Shown here: positions 7,182-47,147 of the stretch, piece after piece
Position numbering within the stretch: position 1 is the first letter of the stretch
How the letters are laid out: each line of letters opens with the position of its first letter
NCBI RefSeq assembly: GCF_001484195.1
Contig: NZ_LLYW01000023.1
Span: 1-64,000 of the forward strand
Direction of reading: 5' to 3'
DNA from: Thermococcus celericrescens
Lineage (GTDB): Archaea > Methanobacteriota_B > Thermococci > Thermococcales > Thermococcaceae
DNA length: 64,000 bases
The notes under the pieces: generated by a model
Seen by the model: only the letters and a program-made list of their open reading frames with translations
Database searches by the model: none
What the model was told of the DNA's origin: nothing
Made by a program: the position numbers and the translations under genes

Positions 7182-7269
7182 GCGGGGGTTGCCAAGCCTG
7201 GTCAAAGGCGCGGGATTGAGGGTCCCGTCCCGTAGGGGTTCCGGGGTTCAAATCCCCGCCCCCGCACCA
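7182..7269 (+). tRNA. tRNA-Leu (anticodon GAG)
   Basis: 88-nt class II tRNA: acceptor GCGGGGG/CCCCCGC, anticodon stem-loop CGGGA-TTGAGGG-TCCCG with anticodon GAG, long variable arm (CCCGTAGGGG), T-arm CGGGG-TTCAAAT-CCCCG, discriminator A and encoded CCA. The decayed tnpB element begins 100 bp downstream. Confidence 0.95.
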
Positions 7270-31165: not shown

Positions 31166-31774
31166 GTGGAAGAGTGGGACGAAATCGAGGTTCCTAAAAA
31201 CGTCAAGGACATATTCGTCGAGATGAAGAACACCGCCGAGCTGATGGTTGACCTGGCCTACTCCTCCATACTCTTCAACGAGGAGGAGATGGCCGAGGAG
31301 GTACTCGAACTCGAGGAGTACCTCGATTTGCTCAACTATCACCTCATGGTCCATGCGGTTCTTGCCGCGCGGAGGCCGAAGGAGGCGGAGCAGATAACGT
31401 CCATCCTCCACATGGCGCACGCCATAGACGACATGTCCAACGCGGCGGCGGACCTCGCGAAAATGGTCATCGACGGCGTCGAGCTCCACCCCGTCATAAC
31501 CGAGGCGATCCTCGGCAGCGAGGAGATAATCGGCAAGATTTTTGTCTCGGCCGAGTCTATACTCGTCGGAAAAACGCTGGAGGAGCTGGACCTCGCGGCC
31601 AACACCGGCGTCTGGATAGTGGCGGTGAGGAGGGGCAAACGCTGGATTTTCGACCCCGACGGGGACTTCAAGATATTCCCCGGCGACATTCTCATCGGGC
31701 GCGGGACGAACACCTCGGTGGACTACCTCAAGGAGATAGCCCGGGGCAACATCAAGGTGATGTCCAATGAGTGA
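31166..31774 (+). CDS. PhoU-like / TrkA-C (RCK_C) domain protein 1
   Basis: 202 aa. The first ~100 residues are a three-helix PhoU-like domain (ELMVDLAYSSILFNEEEMAEEV). Residues about 115-195 are an RCK_C/TrkA-C ligand-binding domain (KIFVSAESILVGKTLEELDLAANTGVWIVAVRRG, FKIFPGDILIGRG). No membrane segment, so it is a cytoplasmic regulatory subunit rather than a channel. GTG start at 31166. The 3' end overlaps its paralogue by 8 bp. The partner is probably the divergent MgtE-like transporter; this is inference from context. Confidence 0.83.
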   Translation: MEEWDEIEVPKNVKDIFVEMKNTAELMVDLAYSSILFNEEEMAEEVLELEEYLDLLNYHLMVHAVLAARRPKEAEQITSILHMAHAIDDMSNAAADLAKMVIDGVELHPVITEAILGSEEIIGKIFVSAESILVGKTLEELDLAANTGVWIVAVRRGKRWIFDPDGDFKIFPGDILIGRGTNTSVDYLKEIARGNIKVMSNE

Positions 31775-32345
31775 GCTTGAGGAGATCAGAAACTGCCTCG
31801 TGGAGATGAAGGACCTCTCGTCCCTGATGGTTGACCTGGCGTTCTCCTCCGTCATGTACAACAGCGAGGACATAGCGGAGGAGGTCTACATCCTCGAGGA
31901 GAGGATGGACGAGCTGACGCTCAAGGTCAAGAAGCTCGCCCTTCTGCTCGCCAAGAAGGAAGAAGATCCCCTGAGGCTCCTCAGCGTCATCGACATGGCG
32001 GAGATAAACGAACAGATAAGCGACGCCGCCTACAAGATTTCGGATTTGGTCCTCCGCGACGTCGAGCCGCACCCGATAATCAGGAGGATCATGGAGGACA
32101 CCGAGGAAGAGCTTGGAAGGGTGACCGTTCACCCGGGTTCGATCCTAATAGGGAAGACCCTCGCCCAGCTCAAGCTTCCGAGCAAGATAGGCACGAGGAT
32201 ACTCGCCATAAAGCGCGGGAGCCGGTACATCTACAACCCCGGAAGGAACGACGTTATTAAGGAGGGCGACGTTCTCATAGCGGTTGGCTCCGACCTCGAC
32301 AAGCTGAGGAAGCTCGCCGGCGAGGAAGTGGAAGAGGAGGAGTAG
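31767..32345 (+). CDS. PhoU-like / TrkA-C (RCK_C) domain protein 2
   Basis: 192 aa, tandem paralogue of the preceding gene with the same layout: PhoU-like helices (SLMVDLAFSSVMYNSEDIAEEV), then TrkA-C (VTVHPGSILIGKTLAQLKLPSKIGTRILAIKRG, DVIKEGDVLIAVG). The two products probably form a heteromer. Start ATG 31767 inside the end of the first gene. A candidate H/ACA-type RNA on the other strand begins right after its stop codon. Confidence 0.83.
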   Translation: MSELEEIRNCLVEMKDLSSLMVDLAFSSVMYNSEDIAEEVYILEERMDELTLKVKKLALLLAKKEEDPLRLLSVIDMAEINEQISDAAYKISDLVLRDVEPHPIIRRIMEDTEEELGRVTVHPGSILIGKTLAQLKLPSKIGTRILAIKRGSRYIYNPGRNDVIKEGDVLIAVGSDLDKLRKLAGEEVEEEE

Positions 32346-32346
32346 C

Positions 32347-32419
32347 GGTTGTGCCCCCGGGGAGCGAAGGGAGGTCACGGCTCGCCAAGACGCTCCCTCC
32401 CCGCGGTTTCCGGGGGCAC
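32347..32419 (-). ncRNA. candidate H/ACA-type guide RNA
   Basis: 73 nt between convergent genes. Read on the minus strand: lower stem GCCCCCGG/CCGGGGGC, a left pocket strand AAACCGCGG and a right strand GCTCC, an upper stem GGAGGGAG/CTCCCTTC, an apical part with GA and TGA elements (GGCGAGCCGTGAC) suggestive of a kink-turn/kink-loop, and an ACA trinucleotide (32350-32352) immediately after the lower stem. Top of the pocket to ACA is about 14 nt, as in archaeal H/ACA RNAs. A TATA-like AAATTTAAG lies about 27 bp upstream. It could instead be a bidirectional terminator. Confidence 0.45.
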
Positions 32420-32442
32420 TATCTTGTAATTCCGACGGGAAC

Positions 32443-34776
32443 TTAAATTTTATCCTCCCCTACGTAGGGCGCGGTTATCACCTTCCTTATCTCCCTCGCC
32501 TTCTTCGGACCTATTCCCTCGACCTCCTTCAGCTCCTCCTCCGTTGCAGTGAAAACGCGTTCAACGTTGCCGAAGTGCGTGAGGAGGCGCTTGGCGAGTG
32601 TTGCCGAGACGTTGGGCAGGCCCTCGACTATCAGGCGCTGCCTCTCCGCCAGGGTTAGGGCCTTCTTCTCGCTCCTGAGGCGGACTTCCTTCTTCCGCTC
32701 CTCCTGCTCGCGCTTTGCCATTAGATAGATGAACTGGGCGGTCTCTTCCTTGCCGGAGGAGAAGAGTATCGGCACGCCCCAGTCGAGGGTCACCGCCGCT
32801 ATCGCGCCCCTGATTGCGTTGGGATGGACGTTCCTTATGCCGTATAGCTCGCCCTCGATGATTATGACGGGCTTCTCGTAGGCCCTCTTCAGCCTCTCCA
32901 CCTGGTCAAAGAGCCTCCCATCGATTATCGACTGGATGAAGTCGTTGGCGCTCTTGCGCTCTATGCCGACGTCCTCACTCACCACGTAGTCGGCAACGTC
33001 GAGCGTCCTGACCTCAACCTCGGCGCCAAGCTCGCGGAGGTGCTTCGGCACCCCGCTCCTCAGCTCGCGGCTGTCGGCGTAGATCACTATACCCTTCTGT
33101 TTCTTTACGAAAACGGGGTTCTTCGGAGGCTTTTCAGAAGCCCCGGATTTCTCCTCGGTTTTCTGGACCCCCTTCGGCTTCAGAAACGCATCAAGGGAGG
33201 TTACCTTCCCCCTGCTCATCCCGGCACGCTCCGGAACTTTCTCCCTTATTTCAGCCCTCCTCGGTTTCTCCCTTTCAAGCTCCCTTGCGATTTTCTTTAT
33301 CGCGTCGAACATGCCCTTCTCCTTCCGCTTTGAGGCCCAGTAGTAGGCCTCGTCCCTCGTCCCTCGGGCCATCAGGATTACAACCTTCCCCGGTCTATGC
33401 CTGCCGGTCCTGCCGCGCCTCTGGATGCTCCTTATGGCCGAAGGCACCGGCTCGTAGAAGACGACCAGGTCCACCTCGGGAACGTCCAGTCCTTCCTCGC
33501 CAACGCTTGTAGCGACGAGGACGTTGAACTCAGCGCGGGAGAAGCGGTCGAGGACTTCCTTCTGCTTCTTCTGGCTCATCCCTTTGTCCTTCCCCCTGCT
33601 CGCCTGGCCGATGAACCTCTCGGCCGCGATCCCCATCGCCTCCAGTTCCTCCACTATTCTCCTCCCTGTGTCTCGGTAGTTGGTGAAGACAATTACCTTG
33701 GAGTCCGGCTTTCTTTCGAGCTGCCTTTTGACGAGCTCCTTCAGCCGCTCCATCTTCGGATGGTCCACCCCGCTCTCCTTTGCCTGAACAAGGAGGTAAA
33801 CCACCTTTCTCATGCGCGGGTCTTCCATGAGCTGCTTGCTCGACTTCGTCCGCTTATCCTCCCGAAGCTTCCTGAGGTATGTGCGCAGGGCGGTCAGCCC
33901 CTGAGTCTCGAGGAGCTCGATCGCGTGCTGGAGCTTGACGGCCTTGGCCTGGTGGAGTCTGAGGCGGCCGATCTCATAGTTGCCCCTCGCGACCTCCTGG
34001 TTGATCTTTGACCCCGCTTGAAGCACTTCCCTCTTTGAGATGTCGGGCGAATAAGTCGAGATGAGCTTGAACTGGGCGAGGGGCTTGAGACTCTCCTTCA
34101 GCATCTCGCGGAGGAGTTTTCTAACCTCCTTGTATATCTCAGGCAGCTCGACCTTCACCCACTCAAAGGCGATGCTTTGGACGTAGGGTTTAACGTCGGG
34201 GGAAGCCTCGGTTCTCACCTCGACGTGTTCGATGCCGAGGTTTTCCACTATCTCGCGAATCTTATCGGCGTCGCTCCCTGGGGATGCGGTCAAGCCGAGA
34301 ACCAGCGGGTGCCTGGCGGTTTTGAGGTACTCCCTGGCGATGAAAACGTACGAGTAACCGCCAACGGCCCTGTGGGCCTCGTCGATTACCAGAAGGGAAA
34401 CGTCCTCCAGCGAAATCCTGCCCGTGAGGATGTCGTTCTCGACGGTCTGGGGGGTGGCGGTGATGATCACGCTCTCCTCCCACACCCGTCTGCGCTTTTC
34501 GGGGGAGAGTTCTCCGGTGAGGACGTTTATTCTTTCCTGGGGGAGATTGAAGAGGCGCCTAAAGCTCTCGGCGTGCTGGATGGCCAGGGGTTTGGTTGGC
34601 GCGAGCATGAGGACCTTACCGCCGTACCTGGAGAGCCGGTAATCGGCTATGAGCATCGCTATCAGCGTCTTTCCCAGCCCCGTCGGGAGAACGACGAGGC
34701 AGCTGGTCTCTTTACAGCGGGCGTAGATTACCTCCTGGTAAACGCGGGGCTCGATGAGGTCTCGGCGAAGGTACAT
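32443..34776 (-). CDS. hef: Hef helicase/structure-specific nuclease
   Basis: 777 aa, archaeal relative of FANCM/XPF that processes stalled replication forks and flaps. N-terminal SF2 helicase: VVLPTGLGKTLIAMLIA (I), VIDEAHRAVGG (II), and the C-terminal helicase motif IQRRGRTGRHRPG. A Lys-rich linker (about 505-560) leads to the XPF-type nuclease domain with YADSRE and the GIERKSANDF signature (ERKxxxD), then tandem helix-hairpin-helix motifs (LPNVSATLAKRLL, VEGIGPKKAREI). Full length and intact. ATG at 34776. Confidence 0.95.
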   Translation of the reverse strand: MYLRRDLIEPRVYQEVIYARCKETSCLVVLPTGLGKTLIAMLIADYRLSRYGGKVLMLAPTKPLAIQHAESFRRLFNLPQERINVLTGELSPEKRRRVWEESVIITATPQTVENDILTGRISLEDVSLLVIDEAHRAVGGYSYVFIAREYLKTARHPLVLGLTASPGSDADKIREIVENLGIEHVEVRTEASPDVKPYVQSIAFEWVKVELPEIYKEVRKLLREMLKESLKPLAQFKLISTYSPDISKREVLQAGSKINQEVARGNYEIGRLRLHQAKAVKLQHAIELLETQGLTALRTYLRKLREDKRTKSSKQLMEDPRMRKVVYLLVQAKESGVDHPKMERLKELVKRQLERKPDSKVIVFTNYRDTGRRIVEELEAMGIAAERFIGQASRGKDKGMSQKKQKEVLDRFSRAEFNVLVATSVGEEGLDVPEVDLVVFYEPVPSAIRSIQRRGRTGRHRPGKVVILMARGTRDEAYYWASKRKEKGMFDAIKKIARELEREKPRRAEIREKVPERAGMSRGKVTSLDAFLKPKGVQKTEEKSGASEKPPKNPVFVKKQKGIVIYADSRELRSGVPKHLRELGAEVEVRTLDVADYVVSEDVGIERKSANDFIQSIIDGRLFDQVERLKRAYEKPVIIIEGELYGIRNVHPNAIRGAIAAVTLDWGVPILFSSGKEETAQFIYLMAKREQEERKKEVRLRSEKKALTLAERQRLIVEGLPNVSATLAKRLLTHFGNVERVFTATEEELKEVEGIGPKKAREIRKVITAPYVGEDKI

Positions 34777-42093: not shown

Positions 42094-42525
42094 TCAGTTC
42101 TCCCTGAATTTCTTCAGCTTCGGCGCGTTCTCGTCTATGAAGCCGATTATATCCTCAATCGGGCTGCCGGGGCCAAAAACCCTTGCCACGCCCATCTTCT
42201 CGAGCTGTTCGGCGTCGTCGGGCGGGATTATTCCACCGGCTATAACGAGAACGTCCTCGCTGATCTTCAGGCCGCGCTCTTCGAGGAGTCTGAGTATCTT
42301 CGGTATGAGAACCATGTGGGCCCCGGAGAGGATGCTTATTCCAAGGACATCAACGTCCTCCTGAACAACGCTCTCGGCTATCTGCTCGGGGGTCTGCCTG
42401 ATTCCAGTGTAGATGACCTCAAAACCGGCATCGCGCAGGGCCCTGGCGACGACCTTGGCCCCCCTGTCGTGACCGTCAAGTCCCGGCTTCGCAACGAGAA
42501 CCCTAACCTTGGAGCGCTCGACCAT
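42094..42525 (-). CDS. methylmalonyl-CoA mutase small subunit (B12-binding domain)
   Basis: 143 aa, the cobalamin-binding domain as a separate chain, as usual in archaea. The B12 histidine loop is seen as [15 protein letters not shown] (DxHxxG), followed by [13 protein letters not shown] and [14 protein letters not shown]. Pairs with a large TIM-barrel subunit encoded elsewhere. Start ATG 42525 ([15 protein letters not shown]), with GGTGGTGA upstream. First gene of the three-gene operon continuing with meaB and mce. Confidence 0.93.
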
Positions 42526-42646
42526 TTTCACCACCGCCCCACTTTTGTTTCCCGCGGTATTTAAAGATTGTCAAAACTCAAGGTTAAGCTTTACGTTGGA
42601 TATTTTGTCCAGAAGGCTTTATAACGTCCCCACGAGAGGATAGAGC

Positions 42647-43303
42647 ATGCTCAAGTTTCTCCACGATGCCCACACCCACACCGCCTACTCAGACGGCACG
42701 GGATCAATAGCCGACAGCGTGGCCGCGGCGGAGGCGAGGGGGCTGGCGCTGCTCGGGATAACCGACCATAGCCACCACTTCGAACCCGGAACCCTCGGCC
42801 GCTACATCAGGGAGGTCAGGTACTGGGGCGAGGACGCGGAGCTGACGATTCTGGCCGGAGTGGAGGGCAACATAACTGCAGGGGGCGTCGATGTCCCGGG
42901 CTTCATGGCGGAGAAGCTTGACTACGTGATAGCGAGCGTCCACGAGTGGCTCGAGAGGCCGGAGGAATACGTGGAACTGGTGAAACTCGCCCTCGAAGAC
43001 GACAACGTTGACATCATCGGCCATTTCGGAGCCAGCTTCCCCTACATCGGCTTCCCGTCCGCCGACGAGCTGGAGGAAATACTCGATCTGGCGGAGGCGA
43101 GGGGCAAGGCCTTTGAGATAAGCTCCCGCTACCGAGTACCGGACATCGACTTCATCCGTGAATGCATAAGGCGCGGGATAAAGCTCACCTTCGCGAGCGA
43201 TGCCCACTCTCCGGGGGAGGTGGGCGGCGTTTCCTGGAGCGAGAGGATATTCGAGAAGGCGGGCGGGGCGAGGGAAGACCTGCTGTTCGGAGAGTTCCTG
43301 TGA
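42647..43303 (+). CDS. PHP-domain phosphoesterase
   Basis: 218 aa, PHP (polymerase and histidinol phosphatase) trinuclear-metal fold. Metal motifs: HDAHTHTAYSDG, ITDHSHH, AGVEGNI, IASVHEW, DIIGHFGA and FASDAHSPGEVGG. Length and motifs resemble stand-alone PHP phosphatases / histidinol-phosphatase-like enzymes; substrate unknown. ATG 42647, about 30 bp behind a TATA-like CTTTATAACG. A gene-free, repeat-containing kilobase follows. Confidence 0.86.
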   Translation: MLKFLHDAHTHTAYSDGTGSIADSVAAAEARGLALLGITDHSHHFEPGTLGRYIREVRYWGEDAELTILAGVEGNITAGGVDVPGFMAEKLDYVIASVHEWLERPEEYVELVKLALEDDNVDIIGHFGASFPYIGFPSADELEEILDLAEARGKAFEISSRYRVPDIDFIRECIRRGIKLTFASDAHSPGEVGGVSWSERIFEKAGGAREDLLFGEFL

Positions 43304-43367
43304 GACGTCGCCTTTTGGACTGGATTTCCTGCCTGTGACACCGGCAACCTGAGAAAGCGAGACGAAG

Positions 43368-43514
43368 CCGTTGGTTCTCTGGGAGTCTTATTGTCTGGGG
43401 GGACGTCCCGTCCCCCACACCCCCTCAAGATCCACCCAACTCTAGGAAGTATTGCAACGGCTGCCGGTGAGCGTCTCGCTGTTCCTTTCAATTCTCTTGG
43501 AGTCTTATTACAAC
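43368..43514 (+). CRISPR. relic CRISPR array: one good and two degenerate repeats
   Basis: A 30-nt unit at 43485-43514 reads CTTTCAATTCT then CTTGGAGTCTTATTACAAC. On the minus strand it begins GTTGTAATAAGACT and ends with the Thermococcales repeat tag ATTGAAAG, about 25 of 30 positions as in the Pyrococcus furiosus repeat from memory. Degenerate units lie at 43368-43397 (core TTCTCTGGGAGTCTTATTG) and about 43429-43458 (CTCTAGGAAGTATTGCAAC). Spacers would be about 31 and 26 nt, shorter than normal. No leader or cas genes nearby, so probably a decayed array end. Confidence 0.5.
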
Positions 43515-43522
43515 ACATGGGA

Positions 43523-43843
43523 ATTTTCCCAGTTTCGCCCACTGACCTCCTCCCGGCCGTGAGGGGCGAGGGTTCGGCTTACCCCTCGCCAGTGGCGGGA
43601 AGGTTTTCGGGCACTCATTCACCTACTCCCGTCGCCGGTTTCAGCTCAGCCCGAGGGGACGGTCTTGCCCCCGTTACCCCTACCACCAGAGCGGATTGGG
43701 GTTATCACTCAAAGGCCACTCATCAGGTTTCAAACCGCTCAAAGGCGGTTCTTGAAAGGACGCCTTACGGCGTCTTCCTCCCAATGGCGGGAGGACACGT
43801 GAAACCCCTCGTCCCATTAGATTGTTTTCGAGTGGCCCCTCCG
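43523..43843 (-). ncRNA. predicted stand-alone omega-RNA-like transcript, copy A
   Basis: Minus strand. A TATA-like CTTTAAACTT (43862-43871) would start RNA near 43840. Helix GGCCACTC/GAGTGGCC (43830-43837 with 43714-43721) encloses hairpins GACGCC-GTAA-GGCGTC (43759-43774) and AACCGC...GCGGTT (43733-43750). The scaffold hairpin shared with tnpB elements follows (43674-43704), and the right end GGAGGTCA. The expected guide starts GTGGGCGAAACTGGG, drawn from DNA next to the relic CRISPR repeats. Not supported by expression data. Confidence 0.45.
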
Positions 43844-43949
43844 AGGCCTTACTACACCTTGAAGTTTAAAGGGGTTTCGACTGTTGGAATGCTGGATTAC
43901 CGATTACTGCACCCCCGCTCTAAAAGGCGAGACTTTCAGAAGAAAAAAG
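43543..43949 (-). mobile_element. tnpB-less IS605-like mini-element, copy A
   Basis: 407 bp, no convincing ORF. Right end TGACCTCC at 43543 (GGAGGTCA on the minus strand), left end at 43949 bordered by GTAA (TTAC on the minus strand, 43950-43953). Roughly nine in ten bases match copy B by eye over the inner ~270 bp, including identical runs at 43743-43777 and 43875-43911. It contains the same ACCCCTACC...GGGGTTATC block as the tnpB 3' ends. Confidence 0.75.
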
Positions 43950-43953
43950 GTAA

Positions 43954-44377
43954 AGCTTTGAGGAGCTTCCAATATTTAAGTCTTTCTGGAAATCCCTGCT
44001 AGGGGAACCGCGGCAGGCGTTCAATTCTGGCAGTCCGAGGAGTCCCCGGAGCCATTGGATGGGCGGAACGGCCGCAATCCTCGGGCAAACAAAGATGTGC
44101 ACGGGATTTCCCCTGGCTTCAAAGGGCTTGGAATTTAAAATGGGCAAACAAACCATCCTCAAATCAGAAAAGACTGGATTATGGTGGAGATACGCATGTT
44201 CCCGCCCCCGCGCTGCCCGCATTCCAATTTCCGAAAAAATTTCGTTATAATACCGTTGGATAATGGTAACATGTGGGTACAGTTCTTGGCCCCAAACAAT
44301 CGCCTTCCAGGGGATGGAGAAAAGGACTTTTCGAAATTCCAGCAGTTATGGCGGAGAAAACTTAGAACAGCGAAACC
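43954..44377. other. gene-free stretch between mini-element A and maf
   Basis: About 420 bp with several short open frames on both strands but none with a ribosome site, family match or typical codon use. Weakly repetitive (GGGCAAACAAA occurs twice, near 44091 and 44142). No RNA gene or clear inverted repeat recognised. Probably decayed accessory DNA continuous with the relic CRISPR and element A. Confidence 0.5.
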
Positions 44378-44938
44378 TCAACGTGATAGGACCTCAAATC
44401 CCAGCTCCCTCAGCTTCCAGATTATCTCAAGCGGGAATCCGACGACGTTGTAGTAGTCCCCGCGGATCCACTCGACGAAGAGGCCCGCCTTCCCCTGTAT
44501 GCCGTAGGCCCCCGCCTTGTCCATCGGCTCGCCGGTGTCGATGTACGCCCCGATGATATCGTCGTCCAGCTCGCGGAACTTGACCTCCGTGACGGCAACC
44601 CCCGAAATCTCCCGGCCCTCGTGGATTATACAGTAGCCCGTCGTGACCCTGTGGACCCTCCCGCTGAGGAGCCGGAGCATTTCGAAGGCCTCCTCCCTGC
44701 TCCCCGGTTTGCCGAGGATGTGGCCGTCTATGCTGACGACGGTGTCGGCACCGATAACGGTTCCGCTAACGCGGCCGTGCACCTCCCTGGCTTTCCTCCT
44801 CGCCAGCTCGAGCGCGTACTCGGCGGGGTTTTCTATGCTGCACTCCTCGCTCGCATTGCTCGGAATAACCTCGAACTCCCGTATGAACCTGGCGAGTATC
44901 TCCCGCCGCCTCGGTGAAGCAGATGCCAGAACCAGCAT
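44378..44938 (-). CDS. Maf-like nucleotide pyrophosphatase
   Basis: 186 aa. House-cleaning nucleoside triphosphate pyrophosphatase of the Maf/YhdE family (dTTP/UTP or modified nucleotides). The signature SASPRRREIL is at the N-terminus, with VIGADTVVSIDG, LGKPGSREEAFEML and KAGAYGIQGKAGLFVEWIRGDYYNVVG downstream. ATG 44938. The Maf subclass is not decided here. Confidence 0.92.
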   Translation of the reverse strand: MLVLASASPRRREILARFIREFEVIPSNASEECSIENPAEYALELARRKAREVHGRVSGTVIGADTVVSIDGHILGKPGSREEAFEMLRLLSGRVHRVTTGYCIIHEGREISGVAVTEVKFRELDDDIIGAYIDTGEPMDKAGAYGIQGKAGLFVEWIRGDYYNVVGFPLEIIWKLRELGFEVLSR

Positions 44939-45058
44939 GGTATTCCCTTCCGGAAAGGGTTAAAAAATCTTGCGAGACGGAGGAAGAAAGGCCACCGGTT
45001 CACTCCATCCCCTCAACCTTTCTCTCCAGCGCCTTTATCTCGCCCCCAGGTGGAAATC

Positions 45059-45292
45059 TCAGCCATCGGCGGCATTCCCCTGGCCTTTTAGGGATTCCAG
45101 CTCCGTCCTCAGGGATTCGAGCTTCTCGTTGAACTCCCTCCTCATCTCCCCCATCTTCCAGACGACGGTGCCAAAGGCGATGACGAGGAGACCAAGCCCC
45201 AGGGCACGGCCCTCGGTTATCAGAATACCCGCCAGCCCAAGGGCGCTCAAAACGGCACCGAGCGTTTCAAGGGGGTCGTACCTCTCTCCCAC
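45059..45292 (-). CDS. small membrane protein with C-terminal coiled coil
   Basis: 77 aa: a hydrophobic hairpin (LGAVLSALGLAGILITEG, ALGLGLLVIAFGTVVWKM) and a heptad-like tail (MRREFNEKLESLRTELESLKG) that probably oligomerises. Function unknown. It lies between maf and the PIN-ATPase gene on the same strand. Confidence 0.65.
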   Translation of the reverse strand: MGERYDPLETLGAVLSALGLAGILITEGRALGLGLLVIAFGTVVWKMGEMRREFNEKLESLRTELESLKGQGNAADG

Positions 45293-45338
45293 TGCTTACC
45301 ACCATGGAAAAGAAGAAAGCAAACTATAAAAAGTTTGC

Positions 45339-47147
45339 TCAAGCGGTCGCCCAGATGGGTATCCCTGCCTCAAGGAGCCTCTTGAGTTCCTTACCTATGG
45401 GCGTGCTCTTGCTGACCTTCACGAGCCCTTTCTTGCTCGGTGTGGCCGTGAAGACGTACTGCTCGCCGCCGTAGAACTTGAGCGGCCTCTTCGCGTAGTC
45501 CGGCGAGACGCGGAGGACTATGGTTTTCTTCTTCTCCTCGATCTCCACGGGGAGTTTCTCCTTGGGCTTGGCTTCCTCGCGCTCGGTGAAGCTCTTGACG
45601 TCGATGCTTATCCCTATCCTCTTCTCCAGCTCGGTGATTCTCTTGCCCTTCTTTCCGATTATCGCGGGGATGTCGAACTCGTCCGCGTAGATCACCGCCT
45701 TGTGGGGACTGACTATCTCGACCTCCGCATAGACATCGGGCAGGAACTTCTTTATCTCCTGCTTGAGCCTCTTCTCCGCGAGTTTTAGTGCGGGCGCCTT
45801 CTCCTCCTTCTTCACCGGGACGACGCTTATCTCCTCGCCGTAGGTGTATATCTCGTACTCGAGCTCGCCGGTCTCAAAGTCGCGGACTTCGATGACGGGC
45901 CTGGCGAGGTCCTCCTCCCTCATGCCGCTCGGCACCTTGACGAGGTACTCCAGCGTGAGAACCTTCGCGACCCTCCCTGCCTTGATGAAGAGGACTGTGT
46001 CAACTATCTGGGGAATCATTCCCAGCTCGACCCTTCCGATGAACCTCTGGACAGCGTCTATCGGCTTCGTTGCGTGGACGACACCGACCATCCCGACGCC
46101 GGCGAGCCTGAGGTCGGCGTAGATCTTAAAGTCGCTCGTCTTCCTCATCTCGTCGAATATCGTGTAGTCCGGCCTGACGAGGAGCAGTATATCGCCGGTC
46201 AGCTCCATCCTGCCGCTCAGGGCCGTATACTGGGTGATTTCCTCGCCCACCTGAAGATCGCGGGGCTTTTCCATGGTCTTCACTATCTTACCCATGCCCG
46301 CGTACCATTCCGCCAGGGCCTGGGCAAAGGTCGTCTTGCCCTCACCCGGCGCTCCCGCTATGAGTATGCCCTCCGCCTTGTCCGCCAGCCTCTCCAGGAG
46401 CTTTTCACTGAGCTCGTACTCCTCGATGTTCAGCTTCCTGACGGGTCTAACTGCCGTTATCTCTATCCTGTCCGCAAAGGGCGGCTTGGCGATGACTATC
46501 CTGTAGTTGCGGAGCTGGACGACGGTGGCGCCCGGCTCGTCGAGCTCTATGAAGCTCTCGGGGTCGCGCCTAGCCCTCTCCACTATGTCGTCCGCTATCT
46601 CCTCAAGCTCCCTATCGCTCAGAACCTCATCGCGGACGGGCACGAGCCTCCATTCGCCGGGCCGACCCTTCTTTGCGAACGGCCTCATGCCGCCCTTGAG
46701 GTGAACGCTCATTGTGGTCTCATCGAAGAAGTCCTCGAGGCGGTGCTGTACCTCCTTCTTCGCGGTCAGATAGACCACGTCTATGCCCTTGGCGATGGCC
46801 ACGTCCCTCTGAACCCTATCGCCCGTGATGAGCGTCGCTCCGAGGGCCTGTGCGGCCTCACGAACCATGCTGTCTATCTCGCCGGACTTCGCCCTCCGTA
46901 TCTGCCAGAGCTCGGGCCTCTCGCCGTAGAACTCGAGGAGGATTCTGTCACTGTCCGCCATCTCGCGGAGCTTTTTGAGCTCTTCGAGGCCCACGTGGCC
47001 TATGGCCTTTCCCTCGTTTGCCTGGTGCTCTATCTCGGCGATGACGGCTTCGGGAACCACAACCTTGACCTTCTCGCCAAACGACGAAAGGAACTGCGTG
47101 AGCCTGCCATCGACGATAACGCTCGTATCTGCAACGAATACTTTCAT
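45339..47147 (-). CDS. PIN domain - secretion-type ATPase - KH domain protein
   Basis: 602 aa, three-part protein typical of archaea. N-terminal PIN (VapC-like) domain with FVADTSVIVDG, E in IAEIEHQ, GEIDSMVREAA and TLITGDRVQRD, the acidic residues of a PIN ribonuclease. Middle PilT/VirB11-like ATPase domain with Walker A GAPGEGKTTFAQ and TIFDEMRKTSDF. C-terminal KH motif AIIGKKGKRITELEKRIG for RNA binding, then a ~60-residue tail. Likely an RNA-processing motor, but substrate unknown. ATG 47147 behind GGGGTGGGAGAG. Confidence 0.9.
   Translation of the reverse strand: MKVFVADTSVIVDGRLTQFLSSFGEKVKVVVPEAVIAEIEHQANEGKAIGHVGLEELKKLREMADSDRILLEFYGERPELWQIRRAKSGEIDSMVREAAQALGATLITGDRVQRDVAIAKGIDVVYLTAKKEVQHRLEDFFDETTMSVHLKGGMRPFAKKGRPGEWRLVPVRDEVLSDRELEEIADDIVERARRDPESFIELDEPGATVVQLRNYRIVIAKPPFADRIEITAVRPVRKLNIEEYELSEKLLERLADKAEGILIAGAPGEGKTTFAQALAEWYAGMGKIVKTMEKPRDLQVGEEITQYTALSGRMELTGDILLLVRPDYTIFDEMRKTSDFKIYADLRLAGVGMVGVVHATKPIDAVQRFIGRVELGMIPQIVDTVLFIKAGRVAKVLTLEYLVKVPSGMREEDLARPVIEVRDFETGELEYEIYTYGEEISVVPVKKEEKAPALKLAEKRLKQEIKKFLPDVYAEVEIVSPHKAVIYADEFDIPAIIGKKGKRITELEKRIGISIDVKSFTEREEAKPKEKLPVEIEEKKKTIVLRVSPDYAKRPLKFYGGEQYVFTATPSKKGLVKVSKSTPIGKELKRLLEAGIPIWATA

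Follow-up and report, generated by a model that had tools for sequence, protein, structure and literature searches.

A Pab160 Box H/ACA Guide RNA Gene in Thermococcus celericrescens and Its Likely 16S rRNA Target

A GC-rich hairpin lies between two convergent genes in the 64,000-nucleotide stretch of Thermococcus celericrescens DNA analyzed here (the window; contig NZ_LLYW01000023.1, positions 1 to 64,000). An earlier note on the unannotated letters had read the minus strand of this hairpin as an H/ACA guide RNA. A search with Rfam cmscan provided a full-length match to RF02796 (Pab160, box H/ACA) at 32350–32417 on the minus strand, with a score of 79.6 bits (gathering score of 47.4) and an E value of 2.3e-12. 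Model positions 1–68 are all covered. In a lenient scan limited to the 171 bases around the hairpin, RF02796 scored 79.6 bits on the minus strand and 26.6 bits on the plus strand. The remaining four rows of that scan were all below their own gathering scores, and no other Rfam H/ACA family was matched at this locus. The feature is almost certainly Pab160 (Pf9 of P. furiosus), a single-hairpin box H/ACA sRNA that is predicted to guide pseudouridylation of 16S rRNA and probably has its own promoter. The H/ACA identity claimed beforehand is supported by the full-length Rfam match, the covarying stems, the 12/12 pairing with 16S rRNA, and a conserved TATA-like box.

The predicted fold was compared with that of shuffled sequences. 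The minimum free energy of the 86 nt segment at 32340–32425 of the minus strand is −46.6 kcal/mol, relative to a value of −33.3 kcal/mol (sd 3.5) for the shuffles (z = −3.76; none of the 200 folded equally well), and a single hairpin with a two-sided pocket at 32347–32419 was borne out. The plus strand is almost equally stable (z = −3.40), so stability alone cannot identify the strand; the covariance model selects the minus strand. All of the following elements are located on that strand. The lower stem consists of the 5′ arm GCCCCCGG (32410–32417) and the 3′ arm CCGGGGGC (32353–32360), which were assigned from the fold and the covariation of helix 1. The upper stem consists of GGGGAGG (32396–32402) and CCUCCCU (32368–32374), as assigned from the covariation of helix 2. 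The pocket contains the 5′ guide AAACCG (32404–32409), which pairs with CGGUUU of the 16S rRNA, and the 3′ guide CGCUCC (32361–32366), which pairs with GGAGCG. Both guides were assigned using the alignment and the target scan, and the 3′ guide additionally using the homolog matches.

A K-turn is located above the pocket, where the GA/GA and GC pairs and a 3-nt bulge can be read in the sequence. One strand of this element is GAGC (32392–32395), found in 64 of the 69 aligned rows, and the other is GCCGUGA (32375–32381), whose GC and UGA are kept in 69/69 rows. This conserved element is a predicted L7Ae site. The ACA box at 32352–32350 is present in every one of the 69 rows and directly follows the lower stem. 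The distance from the base of the pocket that faces the target uridine (32366) to 32353 is 14 nt. The GA/TGA elements of the apical part, the ACA right after the lower stem, and the spacing of about 14 nt had all been listed in the earlier note and are readable in the sequence. In archaea the distance from the site to the box is typically 14–16 nt, according to the available part of PMC7991803, and the spacing found here fits that norm. A continuous 14–15 nt between the ACA and the stem goes with preserved activity in the portion of PMC4652768 that was accessible.

Conservation was analyzed using an alignment of 69 of the 70 distinct homologs, from which one truncated copy was left out. Within the 17-pair structure, two-sided changes appear at 10 pairs, and 92.7% of the cells are paired. 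None of 500 shuffles reached any of the five measures, and only 0–3 pairs with two-sided changes were obtained when the structure was slid by 1–3 columns. Helix 1 is paired in 89.9% of the alignment, which is an underestimate because the lower stem is offset by one base in some rows, including that of the window. All 86 matches, and every aligned row, retain the 3′ guide CGCUCC. For the 5′ guide, 57 rows have AAACCG, 11 have CAACCG, and 1 has UGACCG. The 5′ side of the pocket is one base shorter in the copy of the window, and in those of loci L064 and L065, than in most homologs.

The 16S rRNA of the same genome was used for the target scan, which covers the 1265 nt that remain after truncation by a contig end. 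AAACCG and CGCUCC together pair 12/12 with a single site, GGAGCG-U-G-CGGUUU, at nucleotide 899 of the partial 16S rRNA as counted from AUUCCGG; the next best site scores 7.5. A score of 12 was reached by none of the 2000 shuffled guides and by none of the 500 shuffled 16S sequences. The search for an rRNA target proposed together with the hairpin yielded this one site in the 1265 nt scanned. The assembly of this genome yielded no 23S rRNA. Since the 16S rRNA is also truncated, competing targets in the missing rRNA parts were checked in relatives only. Two relatives were scanned at their flanked 23S loci; the only 12/12 site is in the flank, which includes the 16S end, and the other sites score 9 or less. 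The exact 18-base target is present in 59 of the 94 genomes of the family, and many of the others are fragmented assemblies.

The target as originally written, GGAGC-UN-CCGCGGUUU, did not hold up, with 0 matches in the genome at up to 1 mismatch. This string is absent because the pocket had been overextended by 3 nt toward the upper stem. The CGG that was counted as guide is mostly upper stem, and the pocket ends before it; the 3′ guide was also ended one base early. The string was rejected on the lack of a genomic match together with the complete pairing of the true guides elsewhere.

By analogy with its family, the RNA is most likely the guide for converting one 16S rRNA uridine to pseudouridine. 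We take the site to correspond to U950 of E. coli 16S rRNA. The crystal structures of Pf9 reportedly used a substrate that resembles the 16S target found here. Our guess is that the site is the published position S922. In the accessible part of PMC4652768, two candidate guides are mentioned for S922.

Transcription, protein binding, and modification are proposed here from what is described for the family. Cbf5 is expected to contact the lower stem and the ACA box, and L7Ae the K-turn, as in other guides of this class (PMC7991803, PMC3726423, and PMC4652768, each in the part available). The open pocket formed by AAACCG and CGCUCC is predicted to clamp the 16S rRNA at GGAGCG-U-G-CGGUUU. The clamped uridine would then be presented to the active site of Cbf5 and be converted to pseudouridine.

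The hairpin is flanked by a PhoU/TrkA_C gene on the plus strand that ends at 32345 and by a helicase/nuclease gene on the minus strand that ends at 32443, and the convergent arrangement described earlier is thus confirmed. The latter gene contains DEAD helicase, ERCC4, and HhH domains, and is presumably Hef; it is located upstream of the RNA on the same strand. Two adjacent genes at 31166–32345 (+) of the window each combine PhoU and TrkA_C domains. A TATA-like box, AAATTTAAG, is found at 32442–32450 on the minus strand, an interval that includes the Hef-like stop codon (32443–32445). Its TTTAAG begins 28 nt upstream of the G at 32419. A box 27 bp upstream had been noted earlier, and it is both present and conserved, since a TATA-like motif starts 24–30 nt upstream of the hairpin in 83 of the loci of 85 relatives. 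At eleven other offsets the motif appears in 0–15 of 84–85 loci, a contrast that leans upward because the motif list was made after the upstream sequences had been viewed. This box probably marks a promoter that belongs to the RNA itself.

An alternative source of a genuine H/ACA RNA would be processing from a read-through transcript of the Hef-like gene, with no promoter of its own. The RNA directly follows the stop codon of that gene on the same strand, and the TATA-like box overlaps this codon. However, only 17/85 loci have the C-terminus of Hef upstream in the same orientation, whereas the box is at the same distance in 83/85, and we regard read-through as unlikely. A decayed or retargeted copy of Pab160 that has lost its guiding role at the 16S site could be suspected from the shorter 5′ side of the pocket, but this is very improbable, given that the 12/12 pairing is kept, the ACA and K-turn bases are intact, and both stems are formed. 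In the available part of PMC4652768, moreover, Pa160 and its ortholog Pf9 are reported to fall into different subfamilies through indels in the pocket.

A GC-rich hairpin of very high stability that sits between the stop codons of convergent genes and folds on both strands could also be only a transcription terminator common to the two genes, but this reading was rejected as scarcely credible, because 0 terminator-like sites (hairpin plus U tract) were detected on either strand of 32250–32550, no U tract was seen beside the hairpin, the guides in the loop are conserved while the stem bases covary, and the hairpin persists where the neighbors differ (the PhoU/TrkA_C gene adjoins it in 2/85 loci and the Hef C-terminus in 17/85). 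An independent RNA gene better explains a TATA-like box that is kept through these changes of neighbors.

Pab160 was detected in 85 of the 94 genomes of the taxonomic family and in 72 of the 74 that are near-complete (completeness of 90% or more and contamination of 5% or less). The Methanocaldococcus jannaschii control was positive in the family search. A search of 115 genomes of the phylum identified Pab160 in 85, the same number as in the family. Two near-complete genomes of the same genus as the window, G034 (a single contig) and G054 (about 70 contigs), contain no recognizable Pab160 and yet keep the exact 16S target, which indicates that they can do without the guide or replace it. Diverged copies were sought in the nine genomes without a match, with the genome of the window as the positive control, and only sub-threshold matches were obtained, in 3 of the nine. 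A strict guide pattern provided no match in these nine genomes, and a looser pattern applied to G034 and G054 provided matches only at the level of the backward control. It is possible, if rather doubtful, that Pab160 is dispensable in Thermococcus-like archaea, where the 16S pseudouridine would be either lost or supplied by another guide or a stand-alone enzyme. Genome G067 has two Pab160 matches (C27:139122-139188 and C43:239996-240064), the second of which may be foreign because the assembly has an estimated contamination of 6%.

Two further features were recorded elsewhere in the window. A lone match to the CRISPR repeat family RF01319 appears at 43485–43514 (−) with 41 bits (gathering score of 39), and no repeat array was found around it in 42500–45500. 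A tRNA-Leu at 7182–7269 (+) was called by ARAGORN and is absent from the Rfam gathering scan.

The outcome is the annotation of a small RNA gene and its likely 16S target. As an archaeal guide RNA, the hairpin belongs to a family that had already been catalogued; the copy found here is real, well conserved, and ordinary, and it leaves knowledge of archaeal pseudouridylation unchanged. A reading of the raw sequence without tools had found a genuine H/ACA guide and described its anatomy nearly correctly. Nothing is new in kind, as the family is catalogued, the class of function is known, and Thermococcus orthologs are already in print in the accessible part of PMC4652768, where the H/ACA guide genes of Thermococcus are orthologs of those of Pyrococcus. 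Pab160 of P. abyssi is given as the functional homolog of Pf9 in the available part of PMC3726423; among the matches listed for "Pab160", the literature beyond that paper appears, by title, to consist of unrelated word matches. Relative to Pab160 (RF02796, Pyrococcus abyssi) and its ortholog Pf9 of P. furiosus, the copy described here shares the full-length model match, the fold, the box, and the K-turn elements. It differs by minor substitutions in the stems and by having one base fewer between the lower stem and AAACCG than most aligned homologs. With the other Pyrococcus and Thermococcus H/ACA sRNAs Pab21, Pab35, Pab40, Pab105, Pab19, and Pab91, it has in common the guide class and the mechanism, as far as the available part of PMC4652768 describes them.
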